Of a stretch of DNA of 11,348 nt, positions 1 to 11,348 are shown piece by piece. This stretch comes from Candidatus Heimdallarchaeota archaeon (GTDB lineage: Archaea; Asgardarchaeota; Heimdallarchaeia; Heimdallarchaeales; Kariarchaeaceae), in assembly GCA_015522385.1 (NCBI GenBank), contig WAMJ01000069.1:1-11348 (forward strand), given 5' to 3'. The position numbers and the translations under genes are program-made. The first letter of the stretch is position 1; every line of letters begins with the position of its first letter. A model generated the notes under the pieces. The model had not been told where the DNA came from and ran no database searches. It saw only the letters and a list, made by a program, of their open reading frames with translations.

Positions 1-265
1 CAATCTGTCCGTAGGTGATCTGGCGGAATCCGGTTGTGGAACTCAGCCACGGGTCATCTGCCTTCTGGAGGATTTCGGGTTGGTCTATCCACGGATAGAA
101 GAACCTCTCCATGTCCCGAATGGTCTTGAATTTGTACCCTGATTTCCTAAGAATTTGGTACTGCCTGTTGATCTGTGCGTTGAACTCATTCGGTTTCTGC
201 ACGAACATCTGTGCAGATTTCTGGATGAGTCCTTTGGGGTTCTGTATGATTTGTGGCTGATTCAT
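1..265 (-). CDS. Putative major capsid protein, N-terminal 88 residues (runs off the window)
   Basis: The frame starts at ATG 265-263 and stays open to the left edge, so only the amino end is seen. The start is firm: its ATG overlaps the TGA of the protease/scaffold gene by four bases, and a GGAGGT lies 8 bases upstream (274-279). I recognise no domain in the visible part. It is Gln/Lys-rich at first (MNQPQIIQNPKGLIQKSAQM) and carries LIQKSA, FVQKPN and ILQKAD at residues 13-18, 21-26 and 65-70, which resemble motifs in the neighbouring scaffold region. The call as major capsid protein comes from position: in HK97-type and Mu-type modules the gene straight after the protease/scaffold is the capsid protein. 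A separate scaffold or decoration protein is possible. Confidence 0.6.
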   Translation of the reverse strand, partial: MNQPQIIQNPKGLIQKSAQMFVQKPNEFNAQINRQYQILRKSGYKFKTIRDMERFFYPWIDQPEILQKADDPWLSSTTGFRQITYGQI

Positions 266-1224
266 CTGAAATTACCTCCGAAGAACTGATCGAAGTCCTC
301 ATCGTCGGGGAATGTACCCCTTCTCGCGTGCTCAGAGATGAATGCGTTGAGCTTCTCCTTGTCAACTGCGGGGTCGTCAATGGGCTTCTGCACCTGTACT
401 GAGACCGAGGGGGTGGCGCTCTTCTGGATGTTTGTCAGTCCGAGCTTCTGGAGCTCTGCCTGGAGGGCTGCAGCCACGATGCTGCCGATGTCCTCGGACT
501 TCTGCACAGCGGTCTCTGGCTGCTGGCAGCTGCACTGCTCCATCTTCTCGACCGGGGTCTCTGGGTCATCTGCTGGAGAATCACCCAGTTTGCTGTCGAT
601 GCTCTTGAGGAGATTCAACATCTCGCTGAACACCTCGGGTACACCGCCATTCTCTGGGGTCTCCATCTTCTGGATAGTCTGTGGCTCCTCTGTTGGAGGA
701 GTTTCATTCTCTGTCATCTGTTCACCTTTTTTTAGTATTACTGCGTCAAGATTCAGACGGGTGTCGTCACGGGTGAGCGATACCTCGAATGCTCCGAGGT
801 TAACTAGATCCTTCTTCTGGTCAGGTCGTGGCTTCTTCGTGGCCACTCCGCCAAGACTGAACCCCCTGATGATCCCCTTCTCGATCTCGTCCCATGCCAT
901 GTCGTCGGTCATCATGTCATCGTAGACTTTTCCGTCGAACACGATAGCCAGACCATCTCCTTGGGGCGCATCCTGGGGGTATGACTTCCGGATCTCGTCG
1001 AAGGACATGACCTGGAAGTTACGGGCCTCACCTACGGCCACATTGCTGTGCTGGTAGTTTAGTGGCACATTTCGCCGGTTGAGTATCTTGGCTGCGTTAT
1101 AGATAGAGTTCTTGGTGACGCAGTCGTCCTTCTTGTCGCAGTTAGTAGTGGTTAGTATGCCCTTGAACGTGCGGTCCTCTGCCTTGGTGAGGAGGGACAT
1201 CTCGTACATTGGGCTAACGCTCAT
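262..1224 (-). CDS. Prohead protease (XkdF-like serine protease) fused to scaffold region
   Basis: A 320-residue protein that should cleave the scaffold and capsid proteins while the procapsid matures. Residues about 18-165 follow the XkdF-type phage serine protease pattern: a small beta domain, then LNYQHSN with probable catalytic His59, Glu66 in VGEARN, and Ser123 in RGFSLGG, with an acidic partner close by. After about residue 166 the sequence becomes low-complexity, Pro/Glu-rich and then helical (SIVAAALQAELQKLG), as expected for a scaffold domain fused to its protease. The linker repeats IQKME, VEKME, VQKSE, IQKSA and VQKP, possible self-cleavage sites. The ATG at 1224 has no Shine-Dalgarno; a TATA-like element lies 16 bases upstream, and Met6 (1209) is an alternative start. 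It overlaps the next gene by four bases (ATGA). The Mu-like neighbourhood supports the call. Confidence 0.85.
   Translation of the reverse strand: MSVSPMYEMSLLTKAEDRTFKGILTTTNCDKKDDCVTKNSIYNAAKILNRRNVPLNYQHSNVAVGEARNFQVMSFDEIRKSYPQDAPQGDGLAIVFDGKVYDDMMTDDMAWDEIEKGIIRGFSLGGVATKKPRPDQKKDLVNLGAFEVSLTRDDTRLNLDAVILKKGEQMTENETPPTEEPQTIQKMETPENGGVPEVFSEMLNLLKSIDSKLGDSPADDPETPVEKMEQCSCQQPETAVQKSEDIGSIVAAALQAELQKLGLTNIQKSATPSVSVQVQKPIDDPAVDKEKLNAFISEHARRGTFPDDEDFDQFFGGNFR
274..279 (-). promoter_or_regulatory. Shine-Dalgarno of the putative capsid gene
   Basis: GGAGGT on the minus strand, 8 bases before the ATG at 265. It lies inside the 3' end of the protease gene, consistent with strong re-initiation of a highly expressed capsid protein. 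Confidence 0.75.
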
Positions 1225-1240
1225 GGTAGTATTAGAGCGA

Positions 1241-1250
1241 GCTATTTAAA
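1241..1250 (-). promoter_or_regulatory. TATA-box-like element before the protease gene
   Basis: The minus strand reads TTTAAATAGC, a good match to the archaeal TATA box. It is 16 bases upstream of the protease ATG and overlaps the stop codon of the gp10-like gene. The protease start has no Shine-Dalgarno, so a promoter giving a leaderless or very short leader fits. An almost identical TTTGAATAGC stands before the portal gene. Confidence 0.55.
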
Positions 1251-1740
1251 GGCTAGAAAGGTATTCTGCAACAGCTTCCTCCGCAATTAGCCGAGCATTG
1301 CTCCTCGCCGCCTCCAATGCCTGTCGCAGGAAGGGCTTGGGAGGTGTACCCTCCTTTGCGATACGCTTAGCTATAGCCCACGCCGCAGCCTTTGGATTCT
1401 TCATCTTGTTACGCTTCGCCCACCTGATCAATGGCTCTACGGGTGGCATGTGAGGGGATGTGCCGTACTCGATATAACTGGCGTGCTCCGCGATGAACTC
1501 AATGGTTCTCCGCCCCTCCCCTCCTATGATGAACCCGGAGTTCACCAGCTCTCCCGTGTCTGTAGCTCCACCGTATGGATTTCTGGAATTCTCCAGTGGG
1601 CCATTCTCCAGATATTCCTGAGCTTTCTGCAGTATGTAATCGGCGAGAGCGTCAGCGTAGTACTCTACAAGATCGTCAATGGAGTTTTGCAGCCAGTCCC
1701 CGAAGTCCCTCGCTGACTTATCATCTATTGTGAATTTCAT
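1246..1740 (-). CDS. HK97 gp10 / Mu gpG-like head-tail completion protein
   Basis: A 164-residue protein expected to act at the head-tail connector or in tail completion. It has features of the HK97 gp10 family and related Mu virion-morphogenesis proteins: a helical first third, DTGELVNSGF (61-70), then HASYIEYGTSPHMPP (86-100), where the A-x-Y-I-E-x-GT core is the family hallmark, and PKPFLRQALE (134-143) near the end. Its place between the MuF-like gene and the protease is that of Mu gpG. The frame is open further upstream to 1788, but ATG 1740 is chosen because it overlaps the preceding TGA by four bases (ATGA) and has AGGAGG 8 bases before it. Its TAA stop lies inside the TATA-like element of the next gene. 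Confidence 0.85.
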   Translation of the reverse strand: MKFTIDDKSARDFGDWLQNSIDDLVEYYADALADYILQKAQEYLENGPLENSRNPYGGATDTGELVNSGFIIGGEGRRTIEFIAEHASYIEYGTSPHMPPVEPLIRWAKRNKMKNPKAAAWAIAKRIAKEGTPPKPFLRQALEAARSNARLIAEEAVAEYLSSL

Positions 1741-2393
1741 AGTATTATCCTCCTGAGCTTCGACCTGCAATTGTAGTGCGGGACCCACTCCCGGTAAGGG
1801 TAGTCTGGAGCATACTTCATCGCAACCTCACGGACTATGCTCTTCAGTCGGTCCAGACGCACCCCCTTTTCACGGTTCATCCTCTTCTCCTCATCCACAC
1901 GAGCTGCGATCTCCAGACACTGCTGTGAGGTGCGATGATCCCGCCGTATTCCCCAGACATATCTGTAGCGATTCAGGGGGTCCCTGTCACGGTACACCCA
2001 TTCCCTACTGCTGTTCGAGATGTGCTGCGACTCGGTTCTGACCACAGATTTGAAGAGCTTCATCTGCGTATTCAGCCTCTGTTTCAGAGGTACTTCGGAA
2101 TTAGTTAGGATCTCGTTCTTCACCCGCTCTAGCATGAGATCTATTGCGTAGGGGAACTTTGACCGCTGCCAGTATCTCACCAAGTACAACTCCCCAGGAG
2201 CAGTGAGCCCAATAATACGCGAGATATGGTTCTGGGATCTCCTGAGGAATTCTTGACGAAATCTTTTGCGGATGTCATACCACTCGTATTCGATTGAATT
2301 TATTCCTGATGTCTGAATCTTATTCAGGATATATTTCCGGAATGCATCGATGAATGAGTTGATGAAACGTTGCTCAAGTGTTGATTTCTCCAC
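1737..2393 (-). CDS. MuF-like minor head (head morphogenesis) protein
   Basis: A 218-residue protein of the SPP1 gp7 / Mu gpF group, a minor capsid component bound to the portal inside the head. The amino half is helical and basic. The carboxy half carries the family signature: VVRTESQHISNSSREWVY (117-134), then WGIRRDHRTSQQCLEI (147-162), and PHYNCRSKLRRI (205-216) at the end, equivalent to the usual D-x-RT-x-x-C and P-H-x-x-C-R-C blocks. Cys159, His206 and Cys209 are the likely metal or structural residues. It starts at GTG 2393; the frame has no ATG before residue 83 and closes upstream at a stop. No convincing Shine-Dalgarno is present and the gap to the small upstream gene is 4 bases. 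Its end overlaps the gp10-like gene by four bases. No toxin or enzyme domain is attached here; that cargo sits on the portal instead. Confidence 0.85.
   Translation of the reverse strand: MEKSTLEQRFINSFIDAFRKYILNKIQTSGINSIEYEWYDIRKRFRQEFLRRSQNHISRIIGLTAPGELYLVRYWQRSKFPYAIDLMLERVKNEILTNSEVPLKQRLNTQMKLFKSVVRTESQHISNSSREWVYRDRDPLNRYRYVWGIRRDHRTSQQCLEIAARVDEEKRMNREKGVRLDRLKSIVREVAMKYAPDYPYREWVPHYNCRSKLRRIIL
1749..1754 (-). promoter_or_regulatory. Shine-Dalgarno that fixes the gp10-like start at 1740
   Basis: AGGAGG on the minus strand, 8 bases before ATG 1740. It selects this start over the 16-codon longer frame. Confidence 0.8.
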
Positions 2394-2397
2394 ACAG

Positions 2398-2547
2398 TCA
2401 TTGTGAGGCTGCTTTTAATTCCTTCAGTTTTTGGGCTCTAAGCTTGAGAGCACGGTCGAATGCCTCATCATCGGATAGCTCTTCCTCGGCATTCAATTCA
2501 ACCTCTGTCATTAGACTCTGGAGCGATAGTGGGTCTTTTTTATCCAT
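2398..2547 (-). CDS. Small 49-residue acidic/helical protein between portal and MuF
   Basis: A short gene from ATG 2547 to TGA 2398. The product has a polar start (MDKKDPLSLQSLMTEVELNA), an acidic centre (EEELSDDEAFD), and a basic amphipathic helix ending KLKELKAASQ. I do not recognise a family. It fills most of the space between the portal stop and the MuF start, with gaps of 18 and 4 bases, and runs in the same direction, which is why I believe it. There is no Shine-Dalgarno. A small head-assembly or connector accessory would fit the position, but that is inference only. Confidence 0.65.
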   Translation of the reverse strand: MDKKDPLSLQSLMTEVELNAEEELSDDEAFDRALKLRAQKLKELKAASQ

Positions 2548-2565
2548 TTGCTATATTATGTGCGT

Positions 2566-5217
2566 TTACGTTAATAAAGATATTAGTTGGTCAGTGGACA
2601 GTATGTAGTATTCCCCGTCAATCTTGTAATCCTTGTCCCCCCCGAGCCGGGACCTCAAAACTCTTATTGACAGTATGAATTCTGCAGGAATGGGTTTTCG
2701 CGAGTAAAATTGATCCCAGTCCTGTTGCGAGATGAACTCACCTGCATTCTCCCAGAAAGGATCTCGATCTATATAGAAATTATGCTCATCTGAGATCTTA
2801 TGATCAATCTCAAATATGACCTCACCGTAATATCGGGCTGCATTGAGATTAGTTGTGACATAGACACCGATCGAACCCTTGCCCAATTTCAGAATATCAT
2901 CTCTACTAAGCCCTATCTTAGAGTTCAAGATGGATCGGAGCTTCTCCCCCTTGAAGGAGGTCCCATGGAAAAGAGCGCTGTTGATAATCACCGGCTTGCT
3001 GAAGAGTTTGGGAGGGTTGTCCGAATCAGAGTATATCCCTTTAGTATACAGAATTTTAGCATATCGGTTCAACTCGGTTGGGGTGGATTTATCCAGAACT
3101 TCGACATTGTCCAGAATTGTCCGCACCTCATCTGCGCTCATCTTCTCAAGCTTTTCTGGCTGCGTTTCCAGATAGTGGATCAGTTGTTTTGCCCTATCCT
3201 GTAGAGACTGAACCGATGAGGTCTCTTCTGATTTCTTATCCTCATCTGGGTCTTCAAGTTTTTTTTTCTCCTTCTTGCTCAGGTTCTCGACGACGTTCTT
3301 GGGGATGAACATCCCCCCTTTGTAGAACTTACCTCGTATCGTCACACCCCCTGGAGGAGCCTTGAGTCTCTCACCTTTGTTAACGACCCTTGGCCTCACA
3401 ACCGCTACCTTGATCATGTCTTGCCCCTTCTGCCTCAGAGCATACAACCGGTGATGTCCATCGAGGAGATTCAGATTCTGATCGACGACCAGTGGGTCCA
3501 TGGAGGTCTGGGTGGTGTAGAATTCCAGCGTTTTTGGTCTCACCCTCGGAGAGCCATTCTTCACATCCTCCTCCTTGATCTCGAAGTCAGGATGGACCTT
3601 GAGTTCTGTGATGCCGATGTCCTCAAATTTCACGAAGTCGTAGTCCTGCTTCCACTCCCAGTCGGGATAATTCTGCGTGAACGAGTAGTGATCCGCCTTC
3701 TGCAGGGGAGCTCCTTGGAAAGGTTTGGTCCTCATTGCTCCCTCGAGCTCAGCGAAGAACGAATCCATCTCCTTGGATTCCGTATCCTCCTCGAAGCTGA
3801 ACTCCATGTCACCGGTGAGGGACACTTTGAACCCGAGATTTTGCATCATCTGTGCATGCTGTGCCTTCTTGAGCTTCAGATCAAGCTCGGCAACCTCATC
3901 CTGCTCCTCGCTCGGTCTGAACCTGATCGTGTAGTCGGTCACACCTATTAACTGGCAGATCTGCTGGAGCACCCTGTTGAGCACTTCCTGCCCGTATGAT
4001 ACCGCTCTGTTCGTGACGGTGATTTGTAAGCCTTCATTGTTTAGCCCTCCACCTTGGGAGACATCCGCTTGGAAGATAGGGCTCACCCCGTAGAACGCGG
4101 CCATCCGCTGCCGTGCCTCATCCCGAACAGCCTGAAACTGCATCTCTGCAGGGGTAAGATCGAACTTGACCTGCAGGGGTGCATTCTTGGATTCAGGGTC
4201 GTATGCAAAGTACGGGATCTCGTGTGGATCCTTCCGAAGTTTCTCCTTCATCTCTTCCATGAATGTCTTCAGCATCGTCGGGTTCTTGGTCGGAATCCCG
4301 AGCATGCTGTTCGGTGCCTTCTTCTCCCGGTAGTACGTCGCCATGTACTGCTCCTGCGCATTCGTCAGGATGAGGAGCTGCCACAAGGTGAGTGCAGGCG
4401 GATACCCGTAGTGAGCAGTTGGGGCGTACTTGGACTCGTGAATCACCTCTCCTCGTATATACCGCATGATTATGTCCTGCGTCCCTGGGCGGAACTGTAC
4501 CGCCACCACCGGGTGCAGGATGGATCCGCAGATACTGCACATGCCATCAGTGGTACTACGGACATCACGGTGATCTATGCAGGTGTACTCGTGCTGCCCT
4601 ATCCTGCCCGTCGCGTCAATTGACCATGCCATATTTCCGGGGTGTGCCCGCCAGATCTCCTCGATCTGCCTCTGCAAGATGAGGCCTTTAGCATGTGAAT
4701 ACGACAGCTGCACGATCACCCACATGTCATCAACTATCTCGAGGTCCAGCTCGCACTCCTTCAACACGTCCATAAGACGCTGGTGGTTCGTGTTGACCGG
4801 CTCCTCGATGAATCTCTCCAGGAGCTCACGGTCAGATACAGATGGCCCGATGATATTCGTGCTACCGCAGCTCTCGCATGCTCTCAGCTTGTAGTCGTAG
4901 TCTGTACCGCACGATGTGCACCGGGAATCGAATAGGGACGGCACCTCCAAACCATTCCTGAAGATCTCGTTCCGCAGGCTATTAATCATCGGTCTGGCAG
5001 TAGCATTGTTGAGCACTTGATAGTACATATGGTCGTATGACCTGGGGAGAATCTGGATAGTCTCGCCCCCCGATATTGTGCCTACAAGCTTCCTCTGGCT
5101 GAACGGGACCTGCATGACGAGAGCTTTTTTCAACTCCTCGTTCTCCGATCGAAGCTGCCTATAGTTCGAGGATGCCACCCCTATGATCTTCGATCTGATG
5201 TTGTCTAGTATTCCCAC
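2566..5217 (-). CDS. Portal protein with zinc-ribbon insertions fused to ParB/Srx-like and ADP-ribosyltransferase-like domains
   Basis: An 883-residue protein; plain portals are usually about 400-550. Residues about 45-460 look like a portal, with helical blocks such as YPPALTLWQLLILTNAQEQY (272-291) and the stem/wing region after 355. Two Cys/His clusters interrupt it: C100-x2-C103-x10-C114-x2-C117 and C213-x2-H216-x10-C227-x2-C230. Residues about 530-612 resemble a ParB/sulfiredoxin fold, with LDGHHRLYALRQKG (585-598). A linker GKFYKGGMFIP (629-639) resembles linkers in MuF-type phage toxins. Residues about 742-855 resemble an ADP-ribosyltransferase of the His-Tyr-Glu kind: LFHGTS (His751), GVYVTTNLNAARYYG (Tyr796/797) and IPAEFILSI (Glu846). 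The start is GTG 5217; an in-frame TAG lies a few codons upstream. There is no Shine-Dalgarno, but a TATA-like box sits 14 bases before it. The portal call is firm; the fused enzymes are motif-level calls. Confidence 0.85.
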   Translation of the reverse strand: MGILDNIRSKIIGVASSNYRQLRSENEELKKALVMQVPFSQRKLVGTISGGETIQILPRSYDHMYYQVLNNATARPMINSLRNEIFRNGLEVPSLFDSRCTSCGTDYDYKLRACESCGSTNIIGPSVSDRELLERFIEEPVNTNHQRLMDVLKECELDLEIVDDMWVIVQLSYSHAKGLILQRQIEEIWRAHPGNMAWSIDATGRIGQHEYTCIDHRDVRSTTDGMCSICGSILHPVVAVQFRPGTQDIIMRYIRGEVIHESKYAPTAHYGYPPALTLWQLLILTNAQEQYMATYYREKKAPNSMLGIPTKNPTMLKTFMEEMKEKLRKDPHEIPYFAYDPESKNAPLQVKFDLTPAEMQFQAVRDEARQRMAAFYGVSPIFQADVSQGGGLNNEGLQITVTNRAVSYGQEVLNRVLQQICQLIGVTDYTIRFRPSEEQDEVAELDLKLKKAQHAQMMQNLGFKVSLTGDMEFSFEEDTESKEMDSFFAELEGAMRTKPFQGAPLQKADHYSFTQNYPDWEWKQDYDFVKFEDIGITELKVHPDFEIKEEDVKNGSPRVRPKTLEFYTTQTSMDPLVVDQNLNLLDGHHRLYALRQKGQDMIKVAVVRPRVVNKGERLKAPPGGVTIRGKFYKGGMFIPKNVVENLSKKEKKKLEDPDEDKKSEETSSVQSLQDRAKQLIHYLETQPEKLEKMSADEVRTILDNVEVLDKSTPTELNRYAKILYTKGIYSDSDNPPKLFSKPVIINSALFHGTSFKGEKLRSILNSKIGLSRDDILKLGKGSIGVYVTTNLNAARYYGEVIFEIDHKISDEHNFYIDRDPFWENAGEFISQQDWDQFYSRKPIPAEFILSIRVLRSRLGGDKDYKIDGEYYILSTDQLISLLT

Positions 5218-5231
5218 GTAAGCATTGTGGG

Positions 5232-5241
5232 GCTATTCAAA
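5232..5241 (-). promoter_or_regulatory. TATA-box-like element before the portal gene
   Basis: The minus strand reads TTTGAATAGC, differing by one base from the element before the protease gene. It lies 14 bases before the portal GTG and contains the stop codon of the large terminase. The weak G in the box lowers confidence. Confidence 0.4.
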
Positions 5242-6820
5242 TACTACCGAGCAGGGTCATTCCTGAGTACTGATATTTTCTCACCGCTTTGATCGCCTGC
5301 CACAGGGCCATGGTGGTGTCGTCGTGCTTAGCCTTCGACTCAAATTTACCTTTATCACGGATAAACTGCCATGCAGCTAGCTCCTGTACCAGTGGCTGGA
5401 ACATGGTACGGCTGTCCTCATCCTTCCAGGGAATCACGATTTGTTTACTTTCAAACAACTGTCTGAGTGAAGGCACGCCCGTCTGCATGTCGTGCTTCTC
5501 GGTGCCTGTCACGGATTCTTCAATCGGCAGGTACTCATTGCTCATCATCTGAGCCAATATCTTCTGAAAACTGTTGGATTCCACCATGATGAGCTGGTGT
5601 CCGAACTGAGCGTAGAGATGCTTAATACGGGACAACTGGTACTGGTAGCCCATCCCTCGGTGCCTGTCCATATGAACAAGGTAGTACTTCCCATCACGCC
5701 CGACAATCGTCAAGAACACTGAGTAGTCCGCGTCCTTCGATGTGGATATCTGCAGGTCAACACCCATGACAGAAGTACCTTCAAAGGAATCATGGATGCT
5801 TATGCCCTCATCCTTACACAGATCTATCAGCCGTCGGGGAACTAGGGCAAGTTCATCGGAGAGCGGGTTCAGCAGATATTCCACTTCGAATACATACGGG
5901 CCTTGCGAGAGATACTGGTCTCCTAAATACTCCAAACTGCGGACCTCTGGCCATAACACCGTTGGTCTTTCCGGTTCGGGGGGAAGGGCATCTGTACCAT
6001 AGATTGAGTGATACCAGTCGTCGAAACCGAGTTCTGTTTCTTCTCTGATTGAATCATACTGTCGCTTGACCTGTAACCACCAGACAACCCACTTCTTGAA
6101 TTTGTCCTGTTGCCCCATGGGTACAGCGGGATACGAGCCCCCCTGCCATCCAGGGATATGTCCAGTTCTGATGAGATCTAAGACATCCCCCTGTCGTAAG
6201 ATTGTCCCCACATAGAGGATTCGGGTATGATCCTGTCTGGTTCCAAATATCGCGGCTCTGAATACCCCTTCCGCTTTCTCAAAGCTGATGTTCTGGTTCT
6301 CGTCCAGGAGATCATCCACAATTATGAGGTCAGGACTAAGTGTCCGGATCTTCGACGTCAGGCTCCGGATGTGGACGATGCTCCCGTTTGAGAGCTCGAT
6401 CTCTGTCTCGTTGCTCTTGGTGATCTGCACGTCCAGCCCCAGAGTGTCTATGGCATACTGTAGCATAGCCATGTAGTTGCGGGCCCATACCTTAACCTGT
6501 GGGTGCGAGTTCATGACCACCAGGACTTGAATTTTTTTTCGCAACGATTCCCACGTAGTAATCGCTTGAGTTACCGTGGTCTTGATGTGCCGGCGGGCGC
6601 TGCAAATATAGCACAGTTTATGTCTCAGATAATTTCCAAGCCACCTCTCGTGGAAATGTCTCGGGTTTGAGCAGGATTCGAGACACCCCGCGATGTCAAT
6701 GCCGAGCACGTGAAATGTAAAATATATCAGATTAGCCAAGGCAGCCTGTCTGTGTGCGTACTTCGCAATATAGTTCTTAGGGCTCAAGATCTTTTGAAGA
6801 TTTGGAGGGTCCCATGTCAT
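5237..6820 (-). CDS. terL: Terminase large subunit (ATPase and nuclease)
   Basis: The 527-residue genome-packaging motor. The ATPase half has a divergent Walker A at CSARRHIKTT (73-82), where Ile replaces the usual Gly before Lys80-Thr81, and a Walker B at LIIVDDLLDE (165-174). The nuclease half has an RNase H-like triad: Asp355 in MGVDLQIS, Glu414 in IMVESNSF, and Asp500/501 in KHDDTTMALW. A Cys/His cluster just before Walker A (C46, C50, H55, H57, C70, C73) could bind zinc. ATG 6820 is the first start in the frame; it has no Shine-Dalgarno. Its 5' end shares 7 bases with a divergent gene on the other strand, and a 12-base AT palindrome lies immediately upstream. The portal gene follows after 19 bases, as in most tailed viruses. 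Confidence 0.93.
   Translation of the reverse strand: MTWDPPNLQKILSPKNYIAKYAHRQAALANLIYFTFHVLGIDIAGCLESCSNPRHFHERWLGNYLRHKLCYICSARRHIKTTVTQAITTWESLRKKIQVLVVMNSHPQVKVWARNYMAMLQYAIDTLGLDVQITKSNETEIELSNGSIVHIRSLTSKIRTLSPDLIIVDDLLDENQNISFEKAEGVFRAAIFGTRQDHTRILYVGTILRQGDVLDLIRTGHIPGWQGGSYPAVPMGQQDKFKKWVVWWLQVKRQYDSIREETELGFDDWYHSIYGTDALPPEPERPTVLWPEVRSLEYLGDQYLSQGPYVFEVEYLLNPLSDELALVPRRLIDLCKDEGISIHDSFEGTSVMGVDLQISTSKDADYSVFLTIVGRDGKYYLVHMDRHRGMGYQYQLSRIKHLYAQFGHQLIMVESNSFQKILAQMMSNEYLPIEESVTGTEKHDMQTGVPSLRQLFESKQIVIPWKDEDSRTMFQPLVQELAAWQFIRDKGKFESKAKHDDTTMALWQAIKAVRKYQYSGMTLLGSI
6766..6773 (+). promoter_or_regulatory. Possible TATA box for the plus-strand regulator
   Basis: CAATATAG, centred about 44 bases before ATG 6814. 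An archaeal TATA box here would start transcription near 6797, leaving a leader of about 17 bases that contains the GGAGGG at 6804-6809. It lies inside the coding start of the large terminase. The match is modest. Confidence 0.35.
6804..6809 (+). promoter_or_regulatory. Shine-Dalgarno of the plus-strand regulator
   Basis: GGAGGG, 4 bases before ATG 6814. It favours this ATG over an in-frame TTG at 6802, which would lie upstream of the ribosome site itself. Confidence 0.55.
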
Positions 6821-7557
6821 GTCAATATATATTGAGCCCAGAAAACATATGCATGCAATGCTGTAACAATCCGCGACCTATCTGGAGCACGGAAGAGATC
6901 TGCCGAAATTGCGGGACCGTACTTGGGCCACGGTGGGAGTACGAAGTACCATATGCACAGGTGGCTGCACACAGTGCACCTGTGCTCGTGGTCGATTCGA
7001 CTATCAACAGTACTCTCTCTGAGATTGCTCGCAAGTACCCGTTGTCATATGAGACCAAGATGCGCATCATACAACGGGTAGGGCATTCGAAAAATAAGAG
7101 GAAGGCAGTACTGCGCGAGTATGCCAAAATAAATAGGTATTTTGTGCAGTCAGAGGGGGGTGAACTAGATCAAACTACCAATTGTCACGAACATTTTGAG
7201 ACAGCCGAAATAATTAGAAAGCGATTTGAACAAATAAAACTGGTGGAAAATATCAGGAAGCGGAAAGGGGAAACCATAAAAAGCATTTGTAGAAGACTTC
7301 AATTTTCCCGTCGCAGATATTATTACTGGAAAAATTGGAACAGGGATGGAAGAAAGAAGAAAGACCACGTATTGGACCGGTACTTTGAGGATATATGGAA
7401 CTGGCGAGAGCAGGGTGAGAGTATCAGAAATATTGCATTCCTCCTTTCACTACATTTCGATATAAATGTAAGTAAGGACACAGTGGCAAGATGGCTCAAT
7501 CGGAATCAAGCCAAGCAACATACTTGGTCAGCAACTCCGGTGCAAATTCCTGCATGA
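6814..7557 (+). CDS. TFB-like zinc ribbon fused to two helix-turn-helix segments (transcription regulator)
   Basis: A 247-residue protein and the only convincing plus-strand gene. Residues 13-33 form a zinc ribbon (C13-x2-C16-x13-C30-x2-C33) followed by GTVLGPRWEYE, close to the ribbon of archaeal TFB/eukaryotic TFIIB, which contacts RNA polymerase. VLVVDSTINSTLSEI (57-71) sits where TFB has its linker, but the cyclin repeats of a true TFB are absent. Instead there are two probable helix-turn-helix units: KGETIKSICRRLQFSRRRYY (151-170) and a segment at about 195-232 centred on FDINVSKDTVARWLNR (215-230), resembling transposase/resolvase DNA-binding domains. I infer a viral factor that touches host polymerase and directs or blocks it at chosen promoters. 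The ATG has GGAGGG before it. The middle (about 7090-7480) is more AT-rich than its neighbours, and both ends overlap terminase genes. Confidence 0.8.
   Translation: MSCQYILSPENICMQCCNNPRPIWSTEEICRNCGTVLGPRWEYEVPYAQVAAHSAPVLVVDSTINSTLSEIARKYPLSYETKMRIIQRVGHSKNKRKAVLREYAKINRYFVQSEGGELDQTTNCHEHFETAEIIRKRFEQIKLVENIRKRKGETIKSICRRLQFSRRRYYYWKNWNRDGRKKKDHVLDRYFEDIWNWREQGESIRNIAFLLSLHFDINVSKDTVARWLNRNQAKQHTWSATPVQIPA
6823..6834. promoter_or_regulatory. AT palindrome in the divergent start region (possible operator/TATA)
   Basis: CAATATATATTG, a perfect 12-base palindrome, lies 2 bases upstream of the large terminase ATG and just inside the divergent regulator gene. It is too near the terminase start to be its own -26 TATA box, so an operator is at least as likely. 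Confidence 0.4.
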
Positions 7558-8104
7558 ACTCTACCGTCTTCTCGAGCTTGTGGTGCATCTGAACCACTAA
7601 GGTGTTGGCGAGATCATCATCCACCAGTCCAAACAATTTGATGGCGTCGTTGATTGCGGATCGGGTCTCTTTCATGGCGTCAAGCCACAGCTTACGCCAC
7701 ATCACGTCGTCGGCTTTTGAGGGATCTTTCTCGATCTGCTCCACAAAACCAGCGGCCTTGGCGATCATCAACCTGTGATAGATGCTGATCTCTTCGGTTA
7801 GTGCAGGGAGGTCCCCTGGCTCTATCACACGTTTGAGTATCTCCTGCTTAACCCTGCGTTGCTCGTGGACGACTATATCCCTGGCTTGATCCTGATTACT
7901 CAGCATACGCTTCTTGTGCAGCGATATCGCAGCAGGTGTCACTCCCAATTGCCGGGCTATCCATGCTTGCGTCACCTTGGATCCCTTTTTCTCCAGGAAG
8001 TGATCCCCGTCGTAGATGCCAGTGAGAAGTGCTTTCTGCAGTGCGTCTCCGTCCTTGTGATTCAAAAATATATTGTTCTTACGGGTTGCTATGACCACAT
8101 ACAC
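7496..8104 (-). CDS. Putative terminase small subunit
   Basis: A 202-residue protein. Residues about 43-66 (VTQAWIARQLGVTPAAISLH) form a clear helix-turn-helix of the kind terminase small subunits use to bind the packaging site. The rest is helical (VDDVMWRKLW-type segments and a long helix at 165-200), suitable for oligomerisation into a ring. Position supports the role: it comes before the large terminase on the same strand, separated only by the inverted regulator gene. The first usable start is GTG 8104; further GTGs follow at codons 3 and beyond, and there is no Shine-Dalgarno, so the exact start is uncertain. Its last 62 bases overlap the end of the plus-strand regulator. A plain DNA-binding regulator cannot be excluded. 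Confidence 0.65.
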   Translation of the reverse strand: MYVVIATRKNNIFLNHKDGDALQKALLTGIYDGDHFLEKKGSKVTQAWIARQLGVTPAAISLHKKRMLSNQDQARDIVVHEQRRVKQEILKRVIEPGDLPALTEEISIYHRLMIAKAAGFVEQIEKDPSKADDVMWRKLWLDAMKETRSAINDAIKLFGLVDDDLANTLVVQMHHKLEKTVEFMQEFAPELLTKYVAWLDSD

Positions 8105-8107
8105 ATT

Positions 8108-8138
8108 ACTTAATCATAACTTAATCCGTTAACTTAAT
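8108..8138. repeat. Three direct ATTAAGT repeats upstream of the small terminase
   Basis: The plus strand has ACTTAAT at 8108-8114, 8119-8125 and 8132-8138 (ATTAAGT on the transcribed strand), spaced 11 and 13 bases, roughly one helical turn. The set ends 3 bases before the GTG start. Spacing and place suggest an operator, or binding sites for the small terminase itself. Confidence 0.6.
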
Positions 8139-8190
8139 GGTTGTAAAGCTGGACAGGGTATTGGAAGATTAAGGCGGGAGAGGCTGGTTT

Positions 8191-8202
8191 CTAGACCTCT
8201 AG
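8191..8202. repeat. Inverted repeat CTAGA-cc-TCTAG
   Basis: A perfect 5-base inverted repeat with a 2-base centre in the leader between the zinc-ribbon operon and the small terminase. It is short, and is listed because it sits among other symmetric elements. Confidence 0.4.
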
Positions 8203-8217
8203 GGTACTACTTACACG

Positions 8218-8252
8218 CCCCCGTGGGGGGAGGGTACCCCCTCGGAAGGGGG
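8218..8252 (-). promoter_or_regulatory. Alternating C/G blocks able to form competing hairpins in the leader
   Basis: On the plus strand: CCCCC (8218-8222), GGGGGG (8225-8230), CCCCC (8237-8241), GGGGG (8248-8252). On the minus transcript CCCCCT/AGGGGG close a 6-base stem on the tetraloop UCCG (8252-8237). The inner and outer blocks can instead pair with one another, so mutually exclusive folds are possible. The segment would lie near the 5' end of a transcript from the TATA box at 8275-8282. No known riboswitch class is recognised. Confidence 0.5.
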
Positions 8253-8273
8253 CATGTCCACATACTAACCACA

Positions 8274-8618
8274 CTATATATACATGCGTAATACGGAGTC
8301 GTCGCCGCAGTTGGAGCAGTGCAGTCTTCGCAGGTCCTCCTTGGACAGCAGCATCCCGCAGCTGGGGCACCCGATCCTGCACCAGCCCGTGGTGCGGTAC
8401 TTTGGGTAATGCCCGTGCCTGGTCATCACGCTACCGCGATCCTTGGTCAGCGGTATGTAGAACCACTCGGTGGCCATGTATCGGTCGAGCAGCATGATCA
8501 AGGGTATCTCGAGGTATTGGTACCCCATCATCCGTGCCTGGAGCAGGTTCTGCTGGAGCGTGAGCTCGGGGTGGTACGTGGCGGACTTCTGCTCGAGGAC
8601 GTACAGGGGGATCATCAT
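8274..8618 (-). CDS. Zinc-ribbon protein, paralogue B
   Basis: A 114-residue protein of unknown function, paralogous to its upstream neighbour. The shared block is PELTLQQNLLQARMMGYQYL (17-36 here), followed by an alternating hydrophobic region with FYIPLTKDRG (53-62). It ends in a zinc ribbon C84-x2-C87-x13-C101-x2-C104, with an extra Cys80. ATG 8618 is chosen because it overlaps the TGA of paralogue A by four bases; the next codon is also ATG and lies better placed behind AGAGG. A TTG at 8636 would add six residues. Its stop codon lies within the TATA box of the next operon. Base composition is more GC-rich than in paralogue A. A small nucleic-acid- or protein-binding role is likely, but I cannot say which. 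Confidence 0.72.
   Translation of the reverse strand: MMIPLYVLEQKSATYHPELTLQQNLLQARMMGYQYLEIPLIMLLDRYMATEWFYIPLTKDRGSVMTRHGHYPKYRTTGWCRIGCPSCGMLLSKEDLRRLHCSNCGDDSVLRMYI
8275..8282 (-). promoter_or_regulatory. TATA box (TATATATA) for the terminase/head operon
   Basis: A strong archaeal TATA match overlapping the last codons and TAG stop of the upstream gene. It would start transcription near 8252, about 150 bases before the small terminase GTG. No plus-strand gene lies to the right, so the minus direction is preferred. Confidence 0.5.
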
Positions 8619-8953
8619 CGCCTCTTCGATATGCAACTAAGACACATCGCGTCAAGTGTCCCGATCTGTGATTTGGCGAGAGGACCCCAGCATATTCTAC
8701 AGCCCCTTCTCGAGCTCTTCCCACTGCCGTAATATGCCCTAAACCATTTTTCGCTTAAGACCCCGAATACAAGTAATTCGAAGCCTCGATGGGAGGCAAG
8801 TGGGATAAGAAAATCTCCGAATTTGTGTGATGCATCAAATCTGATGTATCTGAATTTTACATGAGTATAGCCCATCATCCGGGCTTGAAGCAGGTTTTGC
8901 CGATAGCTTAACTCCGGGCGAGGTTTGTAGATCCGTGCGTCTTTGAGCCTCAT
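8615..8953 (-). CDS. Zinc-ribbon protein, paralogue A
   Basis: A 112-residue protein of unknown function. The conserved block PELSYRQNLLQARMMGYTHV (13-32) aligns without gaps to the downstream paralogue; the middle has FLIPLASHRGFELLVFG (48-64), and the end is a zinc ribbon C85-x2-C88-x15-C104-x2-C107 followed by basic residues. The frame is open far upstream to 9226, but ATG 8953 is the start: it overlaps the preceding TGA by four bases and has AGGAGGA 7 bases before it. The middle of the gene is visibly more AT-rich than paralogue B. Confidence 0.78.
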   Translation of the reverse strand: MRLKDARIYKPRPELSYRQNLLQARMMGYTHVKFRYIRFDASHKFGDFLIPLASHRGFELLVFGVLSEKWFRAYYGSGKSSRRGCRICWGPLAKSQIGTLDAMCLSCISKRR

Positions 8954-9141
8954 GTACGATTCCTCCTGATTCCCTGGATGGTGGTGACGACCCTGGTACC
9001 GTCCTGCCTTTCGACGAGCACGTTCCCGTTCCTGCCCTTGATGGCTTTTCCGTGTACAGTCACTAGTCGCAGCACCTCCCCCTTCTGTAGGATAGAGGGG
9101 ATCTTCGGACTCCGCCAGTGCCAGATATATCTCGCTGTCAT
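8950..9141 (-). CDS. 63-residue small basic beta-rich protein, unknown function
   Basis: From ATG 9141 to TGA 8950. After a start MTARYIWHWRSPKIPSILQK the sequence alternates as short beta strands (GEVLRLVTVHGKAIK, GNVLVERQDGTRVVT) and ends in a basic tail (IQGIRRNRT). This could be a small beta-barrel of the SH3/KOW sort that binds nucleic acid, but no family is recognised. The start has GAGGAG 5 bases upstream, and both ends join neighbours by ATGA overlaps, which strongly supports a real gene. Confidence 0.7.
   Translation of the reverse strand: MTARYIWHWRSPKIPSILQKGEVLRLVTVHGKAIKGRNGNVLVERQDGTRVVTTIQGIRRNRT
8961..8967 (-). promoter_or_regulatory. Shine-Dalgarno that fixes the start of paralogue A
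   Basis: AGGAGGA on the minus strand, 7 bases before ATG 8953. It rules out the much longer open frame starting near 9226, which has no such signal and whose extra part reads antisense-like against real small genes. Confidence 0.8.
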
Positions 9142-9290
9142 ATGATCTCCTCGAAGCAGCGGTCGCAGTAGGGACTGCCACCCATGAGCAGGAAGTCGGA
9201 GTACAGGATTCGGTCGCAGCGGGCACAGTGGATGTGGAGGTCCGTGATCATCCTGCGTTCGATTTGAGGGAGTGAGTCACATTTACACAC
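9138..9290 (-). CDS. 50-residue zinc-ribbon mini-protein
   Basis: From GTG 9290 to TGA 9138. The product contains a compact treble-clef-like ribbon, IHCARCDRILYSDFLLMGGS followed by PYCDRCFEEII, giving C22-x2-C25-x16-C42-x2-C45, plus CKC at residues 2-4. An ATG lies at codon 14 (9251), but GTG 9290 is preferred: GGGAGG stands 8 bases before it and the gap to the upstream gene is 2 bases, whereas the ATG has no properly spaced Shine-Dalgarno. Function unknown; phage and archaeal virus mini zinc fingers are often regulators of host polymerase, which is only an analogy here. Confidence 0.72.
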   Translation of the reverse strand: MCKCDSLPQIERRMITDLHIHCARCDRILYSDFLLMGGSPYCDRCFEEII

Positions 9291-9292
9291 GG

Positions 9293-9427
9293 TCAGAACC
9301 TCCCGACGATCAGTCGCCTACCGTGGTACTTCTTCCCGTGGGAGATGAGCCTCGTGAGCGAAGGTGTGACGTGACGGCAGATAGGACAGACGTAGTTCCT
9401 GCCCTGCAGCTGTACCTCATCTATCAC
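9293..9427 (-). CDS. 44-residue C2H2 zinc-finger mini-protein
   Basis: From GTG 9427 to TGA 9293. Almost the whole protein is one classic C2H2 finger: YVCPICRHVTPSLTRLISHG then KKYH, that is C14-x2-C17-x12-H30-x4-H35, followed by a basic tail (GRRLIVGRF). It should bind DNA or another protein; small single-finger proteins of this kind are common in archaeal viruses and their hosts. The start is fixed by a GTGA overlap with the previous stop and by AAGGAGG 7 bases upstream. The same frame is open back to 9646 but that part overlaps a better gene. Confidence 0.78.
   Translation of the reverse strand: MIDEVQLQGRNYVCPICRHVTPSLTRLISHGKKYHGRRLIVGRF
9299..9304 (-). promoter_or_regulatory. Shine-Dalgarno that supports the GTG start at 9290
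   Basis: GGGAGG on the minus strand, 8 bases before GTG 9290, embedded in the last codons of the C2H2 gene. Confidence 0.7.
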
Positions 9428-9621
9428 TCTGCTTCCTCCTTGATCTGCTCGGGACCAAGCTCCACTGTGTTGGGCGCGTAGTGGACCGTGCCCTCCTCGT
9501 CCCTGCTCTTCGGCACGTGCTCTTCGCAGAAGTAGATCGCTATGGGGAGGTCCAGGATCATGAGTCCGAGCCGCTTGTACTCCGCCTTCTTTCGGCAGTA
9601 CTCGACGTTGCACATGATCAT
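9424..9621 (-). CDS. 65-residue putative zinc-binding protein
   Basis: From ATG 9621 to TGA 9424. Four likely metal ligands appear as C4-x4-C9 (MCNVEYCRKKAEY) and C32-x2-H35 (YFCEEHV), separated by a hydrophobic hairpin LGLMILDLPIAIY; the tail is acidic and helical. This arrangement resembles small zinc-hook/B-box-like folds, but I do not recognise the family. An ATG exists 10 codons earlier (9651), but 9621 is preferred: it overlaps the upstream TGA by four bases and has GGGAGGGA 5 bases before it. The next gene begins in a GTGA overlap. Confidence 0.7.
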   Translation of the reverse strand: MIMCNVEYCRKKAEYKRLGLMILDLPIAIYFCEEHVPKSRDEEGTVHYAPNTVELGPEQIKEEAE

Positions 9622-9818
9622 GACGATCCCTCCCTGCAGAATGCATACCATCGTTCTACCTCTGGGGCAAGATCGAGGTATTCTTTGCTCCGACCGACCA
9701 CATCTAGTATCGCGAAGATCTTCGTGAGGTAGTAGCTGTACATGGGTATTTTATACTGCTTTCTCGCACGCTCAACCTTCTTGTTATACCTTATTAGTGC
9801 CTTTTTGAGTTTAGTCAT
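9618..9818 (-). CDS. 66-residue basic helical protein, unknown function
   Basis: From ATG 9818 to TGA 9618. The amino half is strongly basic and helical (MTKLKKALIRYNKKVERARK), the centre is aromatic and hydrophobic (MYSYYLTKIFAILDVV), and the end is acidic (EYLDLAPEVERWY). No family is recognised. GGAGGT stands 6 bases before the start, and both ends overlap neighbours by four bases. Compared with the flanking genes it is AT-rich. Confidence 0.7.
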   Translation of the reverse strand: MTKLKKALIRYNKKVERARKQYKIPMYSYYLTKIFAILDVVGRSKEYLDLAPEVERWYAFCREGSS

Positions 9819-10600
9819 ATCTTTACCTCCAAATCATGAGTGCGGAGATGGGCTCGTTTAGCCGAGTCGAGTCCAGCAGGATTCAGTTTCCGAGGAGGAG
9901 TGTATGTGGTGCAGAGCGGACAGTACGGGGTGTCCCACTTGGCCACCAGTTCCCCAATACGCTCTTCGATCTTCGAATCTATCATGGACTCTTGGTGCTT
10001 CAGCTCCTCCATGGCTGCTTTTTTGCTCAGCTCCTTCACCCTTTGAGTGTACTGCACTACCTCCTCTGGAGTCTTCTTCTTGCTCCCACGATCCTCTTGG
10101 GATTTTCGGAGTTCGTCCTCTACCTCGTACTCGTACAGGATTCGATCGATGTCTGACTGGGTGGCGTCTGGGGTGTAGTATATCTTGACACCGAACGTCC
10201 TTTTCGCAGTGCCTTTCCAAGGATATATCAGAAGTAATTTACGAGCCACGAGCAGTCGCATGAGCTTCTTGACCGTCTTGTCCTTCTCGTCCCTCCCCAG
10301 GATGAAGCAGATCCCGGAGTATGTGAATGCCTTCTGGATCTCGAATTCATGAATGATGTCCTTGTGGCGGTTGAACAGTTTGAGCTCGTTGATGGAATCG
10401 GTGGCGAGGTGGGAGATGCCGTAGTAATTCTGGATGGCCAGAGAGAGGGTGATCCCCCCTCTTCCTTCCTTCTCCCCTTCTACCCCATTTCCAAGGGGGG
10501 TAAGAAACTTACCCCTAGAAGAAGAAGAAGAAGAAGGATACTCTCTCTCTCTAGAGAGAGAAGAATCAGAGAGGAATTTGGAGGGTACTGAATCACTCAT
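9815..10600 (-). CDS. Winged-helix, coiled-coil and C2H2 zinc-finger protein with low-complexity start
   Basis: A 261-residue protein. Residues 1-50 are low complexity, Ser- then Gly/Glu-rich (REREYPSSSSSSRGKF), and are encoded by unusual repeat DNA. Residues about 88-145 look like a winged helix: FTYSGICFILGRDEKDKTVK, then LMRLLVARKLLLIYP and a beta wing FGVKIYYT. A charged helix, probably a coiled coil, spans about 150-220 (EDELRKSQEDRGSKKKTPEE). The end is a long-loop C2H2 motif, YCPLCTTY plus HLRTH (C227-x2-C230-x20-H251-x3-H255). It is probably a DNA-binding regulator or replication-initiation protein; I cannot decide which. ATG 10600 has AGGAGGA 6 bases upstream and overlaps the methyltransferase stop (ATGA). 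No other start exists before the winged helix. Confidence 0.75.
   Translation of the reverse strand: MSDSVPSKFLSDSSLSREREYPSSSSSSRGKFLTPLGNGVEGEKEGRGGITLSLAIQNYYGISHLATDSINELKLFNRHKDIIHEFEIQKAFTYSGICFILGRDEKDKTVKKLMRLLVARKLLLIYPWKGTAKRTFGVKIYYTPDATQSDIDRILYEYEVEDELRKSQEDRGSKKKTPEEVVQYTQRVKELSKKAAMEELKHQESMIDSKIEERIGELVAKWDTPYCPLCTTYTPPRKLNPAGLDSAKRAHLRTHDLEVKI
10497..10515. repeat. Perfect hairpin GGGGTAAG-aaa-CTTACCCC
   Basis: An 8-base perfect stem with a 3-base loop inside the 5' part of the winged-helix gene. It would form in either transcript strand. Confidence 0.6.
10518..10535. repeat. (GAA)6 microsatellite encoding poly-Ser
   Basis: Six GAA units on the plus strand. Read on the minus strand in the gene's frame they give a run of serines (residues 23-28). 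Length change here would keep the frame. Confidence 0.75.
10541..10561. repeat. (CT)n tract forming an 18-base palindrome
   Basis: CT repeats at 10541-10552 run into AG repeats at 10553-10560. Positions 10544-10561 are a perfect palindrome centred on CTAG. Being a dinucleotide repeat in coding sequence, slippage would shift the frame. Confidence 0.7.
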
Positions 10601-11292
10601 GCCGAATCCTCCTGGAAGAAACGGTCGATGTGACTCTTGGACGGCGATTTATGATCCGTTGGGCAACAGTAATCGCGGTCGTACCCTTTTCCAAAGCGGT
10701 AGTACATCATGGATCTGTTGTGGAGGACGAAGACGGTCATTCCGATGACGTAAGCCCCCTTGTGGTCCTCGAAGGTCACTCGGTGAGGGATGAACCACCA
10801 ACGGTCGAGCAGGTACGTATGCAGGAGTTGGTGGAAGTACTTTGTCTCCACTCTTGCAGGGATGAAGAACACCACTGTCCTGACGTGGTCGTTTTCAAGC
10901 TCGCGTATCGCTTTACTGACCCAGCGTTTGATGTCATTCCAAGGGGGATTGATGAACACGGACTCAGCAATCTCCCAAGATTCGGCCAGCCCGTCCTGTC
11001 CGTCATTGAGGTTGAACCGGTACTTGGTGCCCAGCCACCCGGGAGTTGAGGTCGAGTCGCACGGGTCGAGGTCGAAGGCGTACTCCGAGTCAAGGATATC
11101 GTACTCCTCTCTTGGTGTCCTGATGTCTTGGGACCCCTTGCCGTTCGTCCCGAATGCCCTGCCGAGTACAGAGTTGTTGATGTCCGTACATTTGTCCGTA
11201 CATTCATTGGTATAGTGCGTACTATACGCAATCATGGATCTAAGGGAAATGTCAAATGACAGAGTAGATCTTTGTGGTATGGTTCTTATCAA
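10597..11292 (-). CDS. DNA N6-adenine methyltransferase (phage Dam type)
   Basis: A protein of up to 231 residues that should methylate adenine in a short DNA site, often used by viruses against host restriction. From TTG 11292 the family pattern begins at DIRTPREEYDILDSEYAFDL (56-75), continues with DPCDST, then FINPPWNDIKRWVSKA, where NPPW (115-118) is the catalytic motif, and VVFFIPARVETKYFH (140-154), the usual P-A-x-x-x-T-x-x-F block. These match phage N-6-adenine methyltransferases (Dam, PF05869). Start choice is uncertain. TTG 11292 makes a TTGA overlap with a frame ending at 11289, copying the overlaps seen throughout this operon, but has only a weak GAAGG. ATG 11235 would give 212 residues with no Shine-Dalgarno. 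The first 40 codons contain a 12-base tandem repeat and an inverted repeat, and are poorly protein-like. Confidence 0.85.
   Translation of the reverse strand: MIRTIPQRSTLSFDISLRSMIAYSTHYTNECTDKCTDINNSVLGRAFGTNGKGSQDIRTPREEYDILDSEYAFDLDPCDSTSTPGWLGTKYRFNLNDGQDGLAESWEIAESVFINPPWNDIKRWVSKAIRELENDHVRTVVFFIPARVETKYFHQLLHTYLLDRWWFIPHRVTFEDHKGAYVIGMTVFVLHNRSMMYYRFGKGYDRDYCCPTDHKSPSKSHIDRFFQEDSA
11181..11204. repeat. Tandem 12-base repeat TGTCCGTACATT x2
   Basis: Two exact adjacent copies (11181-11192 and 11193-11204). On the minus strand they encode a repeated CTD-plus-one-residue pair (ECTDKCTD) near the start of the methyltransferase. They lie 5 bases from an inverted repeat. Confidence 0.8.
11210..11227. 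repeat. Inverted repeat GTATAGT-gcgt-ACTATAC
   Basis: Perfect 7-base arms with a 4-base centre, just downstream of the alternative methyltransferase ATG at 11235. The form is that of a dimeric regulator site. Confidence 0.6.
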
Positions 11293-11348
11293 GTACCTTC
11301 TCTTTCTCGATGAGGGCAGAAAGGGGTCTTGGGCACAGTAGCTAATAC
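11289..11348 (-). CDS. Possible 3' end of an upstream gene (19 residues seen)
   Basis: A frame open from the right edge to TGA 11289 would encode the last 19 residues, VLATVPKTPFCPHREREGT. It is listed because its stop makes a four-base TTGA overlap with the methyltransferase TTG, matching the operon's other junctions, and because it contains a Cys-Pro-His of the kind seen in the zinc proteins downstream. It is too short to be sure; the methyltransferase frame is also open to the edge. Confidence 0.35.
   Translation of the reverse strand, partial: VLATVPKTPFCPHREREGT

Follow-up and report, generated by a model that had tools for sequence, protein, structure and literature searches.

A tailed-virus portal protein whose C-terminal half would serve as a cargo arm is encoded by the stretch of DNA analysed here (the window), 11,348 nt from contig WAMJ01000069.1 (positions 1 to 11,348) of assembly GCA_015522385.1. 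The gene occupies 2566..5217 on the minus strand (complement), starts with GTG and is a single frame of 883 residues; the plus-strand reading of this interval contains 17 stops. Its product is composed of a portal core (residues 68-470, 3808..5016), a domain of the ParB/sulfiredoxin (Srx) fold (residues 510-612, 3382..3690, with LDGHHR at 585-590), a linker module, APPGGVTIRGKFYKGGMFIP (residues 620-639, 3301..3360), common to the five members of its clade, a charged spacer (residues 656-734, 3016..3252) predicted to be helical from its sequence and from low-confidence AlphaFold helices, and a C-terminal region (residues 742-855, 2653..2994, with H751, Y786, Y796/Y797 and E846) that resembles ADP-ribosyltransferases (ARTs) of the His-Tyr-Glu type, all of them on the minus strand. 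We propose, with a probability of roughly 0.55, that this portal subunit carries a C-terminal cargo arm, formed by the ParB/Srx domain, the linker, the helical spacer and most likely a His-Tyr-Glu ART, which would be delivered and would act on the host early.

The portal core is recognized by profile (phrog_18178, E 6.2e-56, far above chance). The single 883-residue frame with a portal core put forward in an original prediction made from the sequence is confirmed, and it lies on the minus strand. Pfam's PF04860 also matches the core, with 31.6 bits, under its cut-off of 39.1 bits. Two C-x2-C pairs (residues 100/103 and 114/117) and the cysteines 213, 227 and 230 give the core a zinc-ribbon-like character, and all of these cysteines are invariant in the nearest sequences (5/5). 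The gene belongs to a packaging module encoded on one strand in the order terminase, portal, MuF, neck and protease, which fits a tailed-virus portal.

Residues ~510-612 are, by model and fold search, a ParB/sulfiredoxin-fold domain, and the ParB/Srx-like domain originally proposed on this portal is therefore upheld. In the context of the whole protein (a run with an alignment of 4 rows, P0005 left out) AlphaFold gave residues 510-609 a mean predicted local distance difference test (pLDDT) score of 78-88 in 7 of the 10 ten-residue blocks and of 61-68 in the other 3. The model matches ParB-N, ParB-CTP, Srx, SerK and SbnI structures, that is, the alpha+beta fold shared by ParB-N/CTPases, sulfiredoxins, free serine kinases and SbnI. 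The same stretch is matched above chance by phrog_620 (E 4e-4 within the whole protein and 2.7e-5 for the isolated piece); nothing below E 0.8 was found among phages with the piece spanning this domain and the linker. D586, G587, H589 and R590 are invariant in the five clade members (5/5), and they include the active-site arginine of the G-x-x-R motif of ParB/Srx domains. The active-site cysteine motif of sulfiredoxin is GCHR. The five proteins read LDGHHR, LDGYHR or LDGNHR and differ from sulfiredoxin in having H, Y or N at the position of the catalytic cysteine.

A protein search recovered the window's own protein (P0001) and 10 relatives (P0002-P0011; the labels from L001 onward are used for loci). 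The fusion of portal, ParB-like domain and linker is present in 4 of these 10 (P0002-P0005, 41-44% identity over 51-71% of the query), and in a tree built from the portal core only, these four and the window form one clade with a support of 100/100. Portal relatives for this tree were gathered as 3, 16 and 80 loci, the last kept out of 538, which makes 97 loci, 2 being already in the set, and not all of them different viruses; the tree has 38 rows (the window, 29 of the 99 loci and 8 proteins, the viral contigs L001 and L002 standing in for P0002 and P0003). All five clade members have the ParB-like domain and the linker, and they differ in what follows: an ART-like end in the window, a zincin-like HExxH region in three and nothing in one, P0004, which as recorded stops 23 residues past the linker. 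P0002 and P0003 have a common C-terminus (BLAST E 4e-55 between the two) that closes with an HExxH...GHG..W region, and the HExxH region of P0005 is weakly like that of P0003 (BLAST E 1e-4 in a four-sequence comparison, not significant with phmmer). HExxH is thus found in 3/3 of these proteins; zincin-like is a motif-level designation, because no Pfam match of these parts reaches its cut-off (SprT-like, E 0.0043 and 0.056, for P0002 and P0003; M76, E 0.013, and M78, E 0.048, for P0005). Elsewhere the fusion recurs for portal, ParB-like domain and linker, not for the ART-like end, which matches none of the four. A C-terminus that varies among close relatives, as cargo would, suggests from these alignments that the portal acts as a socket for cargo.

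Of the 10 relatives, 9 were scanned with Pfam (P0009 was left out), and more distant ones fuse the portal to MuF: PF04233 matches 5 of the 9, above its cut-off in P0010 alone and below it in P0006, P0007, P0008 and P0011. P0007, of 1528 residues, also contains a D12-class DNA adenine methyltransferase (residues 970-1145, PF02086, E 2.6e-16) in addition to the portal and the sub-cut-off MuF. A cysteine motif, CV.RKI followed after ~20 residues by YC, lies downstream of the portal core in both P0005 (residue 631) and P0007 (residue 597).

In ARTs of the His-Tyr-Glu type the motifs H-G-T, G-x-Y-x-T, A-x-x-Y-Y and P-x-E-[FY]-I follow one another in this order. The window's protein has FHGTS starting at residue 750, GVYVTT at 784 and IPAEFI at 843, with H751, Y786 and E846 in H-Y-E order by position; the profile alignment covers only the part from the histidine to the second tyrosine. 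That alignment sets Tyr786 of GVYVTT at the G-x-Y position of the ARTs, a better candidate for the triad tyrosine than Tyr796/797, to which this role had been assigned and which would be the second tyrosine. From what is known of poly(ADP-ribose) polymerases (PARPs), the triad would be His751, Tyr786 and Glu846. For a statistical assessment, a profile was pooled from 11 ART-family matches, the window excluded: 7 of PF00644 (3 of them under the cut-off), 2 of PF13151 and 2 of PF18760. L111 (the second half of a split PolyVal match) was left out, as were L115 and L116, PF13151 matches below the cut-off that do not look like ARTs; L121-L123, which score below the PARP cut-off, stayed in, KptA had a test of its own, and 2 of the 4 long PARPs were used as left-out positives. 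Under this profile the window piece scores 11.0 bits, more than any of the 5000 shuffles and 3701 natural pieces, and it is also first with four further variants of the pooled profile. In four runs in which one family was left out at a time, the window ranks 10, 2, 1 and 8; the ranks of nine ART-family sequences that had been left out run from 1 to 224.

Several results weigh against an ART. The best natural piece, which lacks the HG motif, reaches 10.3 bits under the pooled profile, a margin of 0.7 bits, and the rank of the window overstates the case because the pooled sequences were cut on HG[STQ], the very motif that had flagged the window; moreover, 3 of the 11 pooled sequences (L121-L123) lie under Pfam's PARP cut-off. 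Profiles of single families rank the window piece from 37 to 4860, and the KptA profile ranks it 593; a PolyVal-only profile (ranks 2286 and 4860) was discarded as ART evidence. When the four long PARPs are removed, the window piece comes to rank 6 with the 95-residue version of the pooled profile and 120 with the 170-residue version, and the pooled profile misses gp109 of the virus HCTV-5, an ART supported by Pfam. The ART piece matches no ART family model in Pfam, PHROG or NCBIfam with HMMER's filters in force, finds only itself among 450 candidate proteins of 486-1545 residues and nothing among 12 candidates of its own length, and has no relative in 8 genomes or records. Its best matches are at E 1.2 in the sequences of the Protein Data Bank (a myosin light chain), E 3 in phages and E 5 in plasmids. 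Matches at E <= 1 were listed for 33 of 294 genomes (the best at 0.003, partial); of 10 loci fetched, 6 aligned again, with the HG-T motif out of register, and were judged to be chance. Structure prediction and fold search, which recover the ParB/Srx fold, give no usable model of the ART-like region: the blocks have a pLDDT of 25-37 in context, and the region predicted alone, as a single sequence, has a mean of 34; the best Foldseek match of this low-confidence model (E 0.88) was disregarded. Of the original claim of His-Tyr-Glu motifs, their presence and order at the places given stand, and they exceed chance only modestly, with no match to a family model. Taken together, residues 742-855 are predicted to be, probably, an ADP-ribosyltransferase of the His-Tyr-Glu type.

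An isolate has an ART in the same slot. In the Haloarcula virus HCTV-5 (Druskaviridae) the genes follow the order terminase, HNH, portal (gp107), HNH, ADP-ribosyltransferase (gp109) and MuF (gp110), and gp109, between portal and MuF, is a member of ADPrib_exo_Tox (PF03496, E 5.3e-10). The likeness to the window lies in a related portal (28.6% identity), an ART between portal and MuF and a ParB protein with DGHHR, gp114, annotated as Zeta toxin and ParB nuclease, whose DGHHR stretch aligns with the ParB-like stretch of the window (single-comparison E 0.001). HCTV-5 differs in having the ART and the ParB in separate genes and in its ART being a PF03496 member. Homology between gp109 and the window's ART-like end was considered and rejected, there being no alignable similarity; position and presumed role agree, and ancestry, as far as visible, does not. 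A motif impression in gp114 was likewise rejected as an ART (2.6 bits at best). In the Methanomassiliicoccales virus, no gene annotated as ART is found between the portal and the next head gene. The ADP-ribosyltransferase of HVTV-1 and HCTV-5 has been listed among viral metabolic genes (PMC8651126). HCTV-5 gp109 and gp114 (L098:14398-15366 and 19987-23868) have repeated tag-like modules in common, possibly tags of virion cargo: W..DPTE.AP.RWT..ETGEHRYQE.KP occurs once in gp109 and twice in gp114, and a module of the type RV[YF][VI]...D[ED][AV]P is present in both.

The linker, in which GKFYKGGMFIP starts at residue 629, had been said to resemble those of MuF toxins, but it is not specific to them. 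Searched as a degenerate DNA pattern, G[K/Q/E]FYxGGxF[I/L/M/F]P is found in 46 viral contigs, 2 of which are the own records of L001 and L002; the remaining 44 include several duplicates and one match inside a 22-codon frame. Open reading frames (ORFs) of <250 residues were dropped, as were six that were repeats or own records, and of the 21 left over 8 were scanned: L157 (weakly), L179 and L185 are tape-measure-like, L161 is peptidase/endolysin-like, L190 has a staphylococcal-nuclease domain, L165 matches DUF7178/DUF5710, L178 matches nothing and L192 is a Mu-type portal (PF06074, E 3.2e-40). Because the pattern occurs in such diverse viral proteins, small ones included, GKFYKGG.FIP is a promiscuous short module and no evidence for a MuF toxin. 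No match at all to the window's linker was found by tblastn in annotated phages. Many small proteins contain the pattern, and small viral frames of ~110-135 codons from stop to stop (L158, L159, L160, L163, L166 and similar ones) carry a [KR]A..GG[EQ]...NGEFY.GG.FLP module. L192 (L192:581-4357), a 1259-residue open frame, belongs to a different portal family; it has the linker module and, close to the end, the motif LIDGRHR. This motif was not accepted as a ParB domain, since among 5116 listed entries its pieces take places 4 and 7, behind two natural pieces and one shuffle, in a test in which HCTV-5's own ParB-like piece is also absent from the best 12 rows. A broader idea, which we put forward tentatively, is that in a lineage of archaeal or archaeal-type tailed viruses the portal is a standard carrier of exchangeable effectors, with the ParB/Srx adaptor and the APxGGxxxxGxFYxGGxFxP module forming a socket for ARTs, zincins and other enzymes in several copies per virion; the module might be a tag by which virion cargo in general is attached or packaged.

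Portal rings typically have 12 subunits, with their C-termini usually on the capsid side. In the mechanism proposed, the ring would bring several arms to the portal vertex, probably on its capsid side. The head protease encoded nearby might release the arm by a cut in the linker or spacer, and the arm would enter the cell together with the DNA. There, early in infection, the ART could modify some macromolecule of the host, and the ParB-like domain could bind or hydrolyse a nucleotide; the arm would act as the polyvalent and MuF effectors of phages do, but with the portal replacing MuF as the carrier.

The terminal domain might not be an ART at all: its motifs could be there by chance or as a degenerate relic, with the C-terminus being an arm of the portal that contacts DNA or has a structural role. 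This is possible, if on the unlikely side: the lack of a family match, of relatives and of a confident model, the weakness of the single-family profiles and the rank of 120 with the 170-residue pooled profile lacking the long PARPs all point that way, whereas the first place against 8701 null sequences, the parity with left-out ART-family sequences, the motif order, as in His-Tyr-Glu ARTs, and the enzyme-like HExxH domain that relatives hold at the same position speak for an enzyme. Alternatively, the arm could be active and undelivered, working in the producing cell or in the capsid, for instance by modifying the portal or terminase or by shielding the packaging machinery from host immunity; this shares its anatomy with the explanation we favour and does not exclude it in that respect. 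Portals generally remain in the shell and no cleavage site was identified, but there is a head-protease-like gene nearby. For portal- or terminase-linked ARTs, PMC9503650 itself offers the countering of immunity aimed at the packaging apparatus, whereas the precedents of MuF and head ARTs (PMC9503650, PMC5576092) favour delivery, and we consider an undelivered arm unlikely.

The fusion would be an artefact if a lost stop or an assembly chimera joined the portal to a downstream gene, or if the ART-like part were also made from an internal start. The ART-like part is without counterpart elsewhere, and purine-rich stretches before the internal Met601 and Met636 make internal initiation possible; nevertheless, the continuity of portal, ParB-like domain and linker in four relatives at 41-44% identity and the record of the window's protein on 2 contigs (P0001) make such an artefact very improbable.

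A delivered portal arm would belong to a known kind, the polyvalent virion proteins, since portal-fused effectors, ARTs included, have been described for phages. Polyvalent proteins of phages and conjugative elements bring several enzymatic domains together on one virion-linked polypeptide, with ART, DdrB-ParB and metallopeptidase as named hub domains, and portal fusions of PBECR, 2H and InPase domains have been reported (PMC5512222). Such proteins have at least two effector-type domains among virion genes; in the window, the ParB/Srx domain is called by model and the ART is predicted only, in a gene between those of the terminase large subunit (TerL) and MuF, and what carries them is a portal of archaeal type, extended by a ParB/Srx domain and an ART-like end. 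ARTs have also been linked to the terminase-portal module, and their fusion to head-associated or portal proteins, with a predicted early action, has been described; many Alt/VIP2 and N4-family ARTs sit on MuF, and delivery has been proposed for such phage ARTs, the alternative being the one mentioned above (PMC9503650). The window piece differs from these in having no match to an ART family model and in being placed after a ParB/Srx domain. In MuF toxins (n=191), 20% have a metallopeptidase domain and 14% are putative ARTs (PMC5576092), and like the window they show a variable C-terminal toxin or enzyme domain on a head protein. MuF polymorphic toxins, however, unite MuF and toxin in one protein, whereas in the window the carrier is the portal and MuF is a separate, bare gene (1737..2393, minus strand, 218 residues without cargo, phrog_241 E 3.3e-5), just as had been predicted.

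Polyvalent proteins have been reported to show a particular paucity in archaea, with almost all proteins of >1,000 residues coming from bacteria (PMC5512222), which makes the window's variant notable. Searches of text passages in an open-licence library turned up no account of an archaeal virus protein that joins portal, ParB and ART or portal, ParB and zincin. Phage polyvalent and MuF effectors are described mainly from bacteria (PMC5512222), and a portal-anchored cargo with a changing end would be a concrete, testable case of archaeal tailed viruses delivering enzymes with their DNA. It would also explain the portals of 1,114-1,528 residues in some relatives, and the finding draws attention to a short module by which virion cargo may be marked.

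The virus is likely archaeal by the kinship of its portal, the nearest portals by tblastn being those of archaeal viruses: all 10 matches in phage records have archaeal hosts, 8 of them being Haloarcula virus records (E ~1e-39, 28-29% identity, 40-46% of the query) and 2 belonging to one Methanomassiliicoccales virus. The archaeal virus of the original prediction is likely to this extent. The portal tree also holds rows binned as bacteria, P0004 is named from a Cocleimonas metagenome-assembled genome, and the isolate rows of HCTV-5 and vir335 have long branches and are of unsure placement. For the ORFs of the L001 and L002 records (87 of 114 aligned), none of the 22 Pfam families listed is a hallmark of archaeal replication or transcription. 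Viral contigs searched with the whole protein gave 4 stretches that fit a pattern and 0 relatives, with TerL no match, and with the ParB-linker alignment only the L001 and L002 records again.

Among the same 87 ORFs of the L001 and L002 records (L202-L207), 2 match a Thoeris anti-defence 2-like domain (PF11195), 3 the DNA methylase family PF01555 and 1 a DpdA-like family. Many of the marine loci, which we label magrovirus-like (e.g., L051, L081 and L088), have a large gene within 2 kb after the portal, of very variable length (~360-1490 residues); in 59 of these downstream genes scanned after a redundancy cut, each Pfam family was matched at most 3 times.

The rest of the packaging module is also encoded on the minus strand. 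The terminase large subunit (5237..6820) is identified by phrog_38 (E 2.7e-41) and PF17289, a neck or tail-completion protein (1246..1788) by phrog_5 (E 4.6e-11), and a head-maturation protease-like protein of the XkdF/S78_2 type (262..1224) by phrog_9427 (E 9.6e-5) and, under its cut-off, by PF14550 (E 1.1e-3). At the DNA level, a megablast of the window against the phage collection gave zero near relatives. The portal-MuF-neck order is repeated in L002, whose MuF matches that of the window with a phmmer E of 1.5e-21. Divergent from the terminase gene, with the 5' ends overlapping by 19 bases, a plus-strand gene (6802-7557) encodes a 251-residue protein with helix-turn-helix matches and an N-terminal C-x2-C...C-x2-CG motif, which we take to be reminiscent of the zinc ribbon of archaeal TFB.

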